Source: a gamma proteobacterium HTCC5015
Lineage (GTDB): Bacteria; Pseudomonadota; Gammaproteobacteria; HTCC5015
Reading direction: 5' to 3'
NCBI GenBank assembly: GCA_000155715.1
Contig: DS990616.1
Coordinates: forward strand, 1-32,114
Length of the DNA: 32,114 nucleotides
How positions within the stretch are numbered: the stretch's first letter is position 1; each line of letters opens with the position of its first letter. The notes below the pieces were generated by a model. That model saw only the letters and a program-made list of their open reading frames with translations. It searched no databases and was not told the DNA's origin. Position numbers and translations under genes: made by a program. Shown here piece by piece: positions 22,085-22,823 of the stretch.

Positions 22085-22172
22085 GTGGCGGTTATGGAGG
22101 CTCGCCCCGAGCACCCAATGCCATCCCCTCCCTTACGAAAAACTCGTTATTGCAATGACAATACCCCCACCG

Positions 22173-22254
22173 TCGCTCCCGCGCAGGCGGGAACCCAGTG
22201 ACTTTACGACACCACTCACTCAAAGACGCTGGATTCCCGCCTGCGCGGGAATGA
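22173..22254. repeat. Inverted pair of REP-like palindromic repeats
   Basis: The arms 22173-22198 and 22229-22254 are inverted copies of one another with about 23 of 26 positions matching, around a 30-base spacer. Each arm is itself palindromic (CCCGCGCAGGCGGG and CCCGCCTGCGCGGG). The right arm fits ATTCCC-N8-GGGAAT, the pattern of dRS3-type repeats, although that similarity is only in form. Arranged head to head like this, the pair can fold into a long hairpin. Confidence 0.75.
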
Positions 22255-22436
22255 CGGGCATGCCGGAGATTTAAGGTTTGAGGAATAACGAGCACTTCAG
22301 GGAGACAACGTGGCCACGAGATGTACAGTGGGCTACGCCTAACGGCTAAACCACCCTAGACCCTGCGTTTGTCGGCCCGAAAACGGACCTCCCACAAAAA
22401 CTCTCGTCAATGACGCATACAGAAACAACAGCTTCA

Positions 22437-22486: not shown

Positions 22487-22497
22487 CCGTCCACTAG

Positions 22498-22760
22498 GGC
22501 CTGTTAACACAAATTTGATGGTCACTGTTGTGACTAAAAAAGCGCCAATCAAAGCGCAAGGAGCGTGGTTTGGTGAATCCAAATGAGCGACGAGCAACGA
22601 TGAGTGGCGCTTTTTTAGTCACAACCCGAAGGGCTGGAGCTATTTTCCGCCCAGATGCGTTATCAGTTGTTTGTGTAGACGTACTACACGGCACTCCTTC
22701 TGCCTTGCTGGGCAGGAAAATAGCTTCCAGCAGAGATCATAAAATTTGTGTTAACAGGCC
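22498..22760. mobile_element. MITE-like non-autonomous element with nested hairpins, flanked by CTAG
   Basis: A 263-bp element bounded by perfect 19-bp terminal inverted repeats (GGCCTGTTAACACAAATTT at 22498-22516; inverted copy at 22742-22760). CTAG on each side (22494-22497, 22761-22764) could be a 4-bp target duplication. Imperfect pairing runs several bases further inward. Inside are a perfect 20-bp inverted repeat (22527-22546 with 22606-22625), an imperfect 21/23-base inverted repeat (22634-22654 with 22708-22730), and a small GTGTAG/CTACAC hairpin (22673-22689). There is no transposase or credible ORF. The size, terminal repeats and CTAG flanks suggest a MITE mobilised in trans, perhaps by an IS5-group transposase (inference). 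Confidence 0.8.
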
Positions 22761-22776
22761 CTAGAAGCATATCAAC

Positions 22777-22800
22777 AAAAAAGGCGCCGAAGCGCCTTTT
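22777..22800. terminator. Rho-independent terminator of secDF, probably bidirectional
   Basis: GGCGC-CGAA-GCGCC (22783-22796) has six As on the left and four Ts on the right. Read on the minus strand it is a UUCG tetraloop hairpin followed by a U run, 24 bases after the secDF stop. It lies 12 bases from the CTAG flank of the MITE-like element. Confidence 0.92.
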
Positions 22801-22823
22801 CTATCGATATCCTAGCCTTGCTG

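Follow-up and report, generated by a model that had tools for sequence, protein, structure and literature searches.

Bacterial MITEs, that is, non-autonomous DNA transposons, are commonly regarded as deletion products that do not last long and belong to one local insertion sequence (IS). REPINs depend on RAYT (Y1) enzymes for their movement and are not known to have terminal repeats or a TA duplication. The closest published case that we found for the element described here is MITEAba12 of Acinetobacter, which, in the accessible part of its report (PMC6382973), is a non-autonomous element of conserved length (113 bp in 90% of the copies) whose identity to an IS is confined to ends of the GG..TTGTTGC type, and for which trans-mobilisation by a co-resident IS was proposed. 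The same part of the report gives a 9-bp target duplication and a single host family (Moraxellaceae), and describes no conserved multi-hairpin fold. The ERIC/RU-1, Correia/NEMIS and RUP repeats are small (100–200 bp) and non-coding, with terminal TA, stable long stem-loops and many intergenic copies, and RUP has been linked to an IS with a TA target; an inverted dimer of terminal repeat plus hairpin is not described in the portion of the source available to us (PMC2229807). The REPINs of Pseudomonas, as far as the accessible text of PMC3116915 goes, consist of two hairpin-forming units in inverted orientation.

Here, we describe a 265-bp element in the window (the whole stretch of DNA analysed, 32,114 nucleotides from the gamma proteobacterium HTCC5015) that is mobile, multicopy, TA-inserting and non-coding, with a conserved fold. 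It resembles MITEAba12 in its conserved length, in IS identity that is limited to the ends and in its proposed mobilisation in trans by an IS, but it is longer and duplicates TA. With ERIC, Correia and RUP it shares small size, terminal TA, long stem-loops and intergenic copies; homology to ERIC was considered and rejected (best local score 28, shuffled maximum 34). Like REPINs it is built of two inverted hairpin-forming units, although its terminal repeats and TA duplication point elsewhere. It shares GGGNCTGTTNNC-type ends and a TA duplication inside YTAR with IS5-family insertion sequences of NCBIfam model NF033580, but it carries no transposase gene and has nothing visible in common with them beyond the ends. 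A search of the open literature by end sequence and topic found no description of the family. The kind, a MITE, is already known, and the family itself may have been named before. Our main reading, with a probability of about 0.72, is a MITE that is moved in trans by NF033580-type IS5-family transposases.

A mobile, multicopy element that inserts at TA

The element lies between two convergent genes, a suhB-like inositol monophosphatase gene on the plus strand and, to its right, secDF on the minus strand, and contains no long open reading frame. Read end to end it is GGGCCTGTTAACACAAATTT...AAATTTGTGTTAACAGGCCC with TA on each side (CTA before, TAG after). Its outer inverted repeat is perfect over 20 bp from GGG, or 23 bp if the flanking CTA is included, and arms of 37 nt are 89% identical. 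A separate palindromic repeat, GGATTCCCGCCTGCGCGGGAATGAC, adjoins the element at window positions 22167–22258, and gave rise to spurious miRNA-family matches in the Rfam search; similar sequence also abuts a truncated copy of the element elsewhere in this genome (G000:C9:15396).

Table 1 Features of the element in the window
Feature	Positions	Strand	Basis or remark
Whole element, 265 bp (GGG...CCC), non-coding	22497..22761	.	Ends set by aligning 41 full-length copies from this genome and by empty homologous sites in relatives
Left TA duplicate (target CTAG)	22495..22496	.	YTA beside nearly all copies; single TA at empty homologous sites
Right TA duplicate	22762..22763	.	TAR beside nearly all copies
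Left terminal inverted repeat GGGCCTGTTAACACAAATTT (perfect part)	22497..22516	+	Matches IS5-family ends
Right terminal inverted repeat	22742..22761	-	Perfect inverted match to the left repeat over 20 bp
Hairpin 1	22527..22625	+	Stem 22527-22546 / 22606-22625; order A-tract, GC stem, T-tract
Hairpin 1 apical motif AAGCGCAAGGAGCGTGGTTTGGTGAATCCAAATGAGCGACGAG, conserved	22552..22594	+	Invariance inflated: pattern partly used to find relatives
Mini-hairpin CCCGAAGGG	22625..22633	.	Centre of two-fold pseudo-symmetry
Hairpin 2, diverged inverted copy of hairpin 1	22632..22731 (about)	-	58/89 identical, gapless, consensus vs reverse-complemented consensus

The genome (2.63 Mb in 30 contigs) holds about 40 full-length copies. 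Among the 41 that were aligned, 40 are 94.8–100% identical to the window copy and one is 90% identical; most lie 2–6 bases from the consensus, and their flanks vary. The left flank is YTA in 37 of the 41 copies and the right flank TAR in 39, and the target is therefore YTAR, with TA duplicated and GGG/CCC as the ends of the element. Since other copies sit at CTAA, TTAG and TTAA, the outer G/C bases are part of the element. By simple ORF calls, 38 of 39 tested insertion sites are intergenic, and many copies abut gene ends. In 15 of the 39 insertions, the target TA is precisely that of a stop codon (ORFs of at least 80 codons), compared with 13% of background YTAR sites. Because the element starts with G, TA plus G recreates a TAG stop, which makes such sites harmless.

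Insertion sites in a relative show that the element moves. We joined nine sites of a Ca. Thiodiazotropha genome (G351) across the element and searched for them in 22 genomes of the genus. Five (L292, L293, L295, L297 and L298) read through without interruption, at one TA, in sister species at 94–97% identity, and two others are occupied in sister species; at least five sites are thus precisely empty with a single TA, hence the element is mobile. At the site of L291, two relatives (L342 in G374 and L347 in G373) read CTGTTA-GCAGGCCC-TAGTCAG where the expected empty site is CTGTTAACTAGTCAG, and GCAGGCCC looks like a short remnant of the right end of the element between two TA copies, that is, an imperfect excision footprint. 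One Thiodiazotropha copy (L295/L345) is nested: it interrupts the TTAA within an earlier terminal repeat (GGGCCTGTTAACACC), so the terminal repeats themselves offer YTAR targets.

A sequence-only reading of the window had proposed a 263-bp MITE-like element with 19-bp perfect terminal repeats, CTAG flanks and a place beside the secDF terminator. Its main point holds, given the copy number, the varied flanks, the empty target sites (seen in relatives of another carrier) and the transposases with shared ends described below. The element is real but measures 265 bp, the perfect repeat extends over 20 bp from GGG, and CTAG is correct for the window copy but is not the rule, which is TA duplicated within YTAR. 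A terminator-like hairpin of secDF does lie just outside the element, at about 22779–22803. The single-copy sequence at a fixed locus that would have spoken against mobility is excluded by the many copies and by the absence of the element from the same-family genomes searched.

Probable transposase partner

The ends of the element (GGGCCTGTTAACAC) and its TA target match intact insertion sequences of the IS5 family (NF033580), which we take to be IS427-like. Scanning viral contigs for the end sequence revealed an 858-bp IS at CTAG with ends GGGTCTGTTGACGTTTT, which encodes a 249-aa transposase that scores 277 bits against the IS5 family model NF033580. Two carriers of the element have a related transposase in an IS whose ends are almost the same as those of their MITEs: an 808-bp IS with ends GGGCGTGTTAACACTAAT beside MITE ends GGGCCTGTTAACACTATCCC in G124, and an 822-bp IS with ends GGTTCTGTTGACGTTTC beside MITE ends GGCTCTGTTGACGTTTACTG in G278. 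Other NF033580 insertion sequences end in GGGCCTGTTGATCTTT and GGGGCTGTTGCCGTTTT, and four further ones have GGG(C/G/A)CTGTT ends and TA flanks. Wherever the ends of such an IS were resolved it is TA-flanked, mostly in YTAR, and the end match to several independent ones spans 13–17 nt. Ends and target are of the IS5 NF033580 type, hence trans-mobilisation by such enzymes, as predicted from these matches, is well supported. In this scheme, the GGGNCTGTTNNC ends would be what the transposase recognises; the element would then be cut out or copied and would enter a TA inside YTAR, the TA being duplicated in the process.

No NF033580 transposase was found in the element's own genome. The DDE_Tnp_1 matches there were considered as helpers and rejected, as they belong to elements of about 1.68 kb with unrelated ends (CCTAAATTCTGCA); there are no other DDE_Tnp_1 matches in this genome. 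In the loci screened for this, a search between pairs of terminal repeats gave neighbouring genes only and no autonomous copy. Across 369 genomes, carriage of the element is not associated with NF033580 (10/24 versus 127/345, p = 0.67), nor is it when matches over the cut-off are counted (4/24 versus 32/345, p = 0.27). As carriage does not track NF033580, the assignment of the partner type rests on ends and target and not on co-residence. Both the missing partner in the own genome and the lack of co-occurrence are what would be seen if the main mover were another TA-targeting transposase (e.g., IS630/Tc1-like) or an unrecognised enzyme, with the IS5 end match being convergent. The same applies to elements with a second type of terminal repeat, GAGCCTGTCTGTGAATAAATC, for which no IS with those ends was seen in the three genomes concerned (G024, G171 and G278). 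However, end matches of this length together with the YTAR/TA target recur in several independent NF033580 insertion sequences, and we regard such another mover as unlikely. Under trans-mobilisation by IS5-family enzymes, helper transposases may be gained and lost by transfer, and most present hosts, this genome included, would then carry passengers only.

A conserved fold and its possible role

The internal hairpins of the sequence-only reading are all present: hairpin 1, the arms of which match perfectly over 20 bp, an imperfect hairpin 2 and, as the small third one, the mini-hairpin CCCGAAGGG. The folding energy is −143 kcal/mol compared with −76 ± 5 for shuffled sequences (z = −13), and the two strands both fold far beyond shuffles (z of about −13 and −14). 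Across 45 diverse elements, 95.3% of the cells are paired, against 37–43% with slid partners; 70 of 84 pairs show two-sided changes, and the covariation is 0.62 compared with about 0.10 (slid) and 0.16 (shuffled). For the hairpin 1 stem, two-sided changes occur in 16 of 18 pairs across relatives. The stem covariation that the earlier reading had named as worth checking is therefore very strong. In four Pseudomonas-type elements (L081, L138, L185 and L361), the A..T order of hairpin 1 and the T..A order of hairpin 2 are swapped relative to most relatives; swapped or not, there is one terminator-like hairpin per element.

The length is 264–266 bp in 125 of 144 distinct elements, and it stays so across many families and beyond a single class, with differing terminal repeats as well. 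The GAGCCTGTCTGTGAATAAATC-type repeats, which occur in the genus of G278, enclose the same core at exactly 265 bp (G024, G171 and G278), with flanks that lack a clear TA duplication; on a Citrobacter plasmid, the core has ends GGCTGTGTCCCTTAATTG. Both the apical motif and CCCGAAGGG keep their sequence from family to family and under differing terminal repeats. Over a gapless 89 nt, consensus hairpin 1 is 65% identical to reverse-complemented hairpin 2; within single elements the average is 60%, compared with 55% for the forward comparison or a random hairpin. This likeness, together with the central CCCGAAGGG, indicates that the whole element is built as an inverted dimer, each unit being about 132 nt long and consisting of a terminal repeat plus hairpin. 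A protein-coding core was considered and dropped, since the ATG of the apical motif is often ATA and, by inspection, the reading stops early in the window copy.

Such a stable and strongly covarying fold, in copies that are mostly intergenic and often abut gene ends, would also be expected of a structured RNA, be it a small RNA or an element of mRNA processing, that transposition has dispersed, as has been proposed for ERIC and Correia and as the sequence-only reading had offered as its alternative. Stem mismatches are informative here: G.T occurs in 78 cells and A.C in 53, cells that are not independent, whereas 12 tRNAs under the same treatment, a small control biased by the tRNA finder, give 11 G.T and 0 A.C. 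G.T is thus slightly more frequent, as an RNA would have it, but only barely so, and the similar frequencies suggest that complementarity is kept on DNA and not on one RNA strand. Because complementarity is nearly strand-symmetric, because the element has no match to any curated RNA model in Rfam, and because no promoter-like site was found in the region, we consider a structured RNA very unlikely.

The near strand symmetry is also what a mutational process at the DNA level predicts. The element could be a plain IS5-type MITE with functionless hairpins that arose by inverted duplication and are kept alike by mutational palindrome correction (template switching within hairpins). Hairpin-deleted copies fit this: in the own genome there are two 174-bp copies without hairpin 1, which share an identical junction between CAC repeats (C16:54916-55087 and C28:68862-69033 of G000), and one 52-bp copy that consists of the terminal repeats only, while shortened copies elsewhere measure 175–207 bp. 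The 174-bp pair reflects either recurrent deletion of the palindrome or a spreading variant, and in the latter case, spread by transposition, it would argue that hairpin 1 is dispensable. Without constraint, however, neither the conservation of the apical motif and CCCGAAGGG across families and terminal repeats nor the length held at 264–266 bp is expected, which makes functionless hairpins somewhat doubtful in our view. Alternatively, the fixed length could have been inherited from one founder, without selection.

For an IS5-mobilised MITE, we infer a role of the inner hairpins in transposition or persistence. The fold would act as DNA, either as a cruciform or as a folded single strand of each half, and may serve transposition, perhaps by bringing the two ends together as a pair or by providing subterminal sites, which would explain both why the length is fixed at 265 bp and why changes in the stems are compensatory. 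More tentatively, the inner hairpins may be a DNA-level module under selection, in which the motif, the inverted-dimer layout and the exact 265-bp frame are kept while the terminal repeats change to suit different transposases; the module would then be a selfish element that survives for long periods, beyond the loss of its helpers, and passes from one bacterial class to another.

Distribution and significance

Among the 369 genomes sampled from the class, 24, belonging to 19 families, have the hairpin 1 motif. Named genomes, among them Thiodiazotropha, Pseudomonas, Stutzerimonas, Alcanivorax, Gilvimarinus, Woeseiaceae, Chromatiales and others, contain it in at least 113 stretches, and it is also present on plasmids of Pseudomonas aeruginosa, Azotobacter, Halomonas and Citrobacter. 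The apex looks more invariant than it really is, because the motif itself drove the first scans. With a covariance model of hairpin 1, the E-values of which are rough, 398 genomes sampled from the phylum gave 74 with a match, many of them outside the class. When 20 such loci from outside the class were checked, most were complete elements of 264–268 bp with the same end type. Phage records gave no match to the element. The same exact length and fold in many other proteobacteria is unusual for such a small parasite.

For annotators, the covariance model offers a handle on a frequent unannotated repeat, and the element is a testable case for why a transposon keeps folded DNA. An element of this kind, with length and fold kept across many families and more than one class and the presumed helper often absent, would show that passengers can be ancient and widely transferred lineages.
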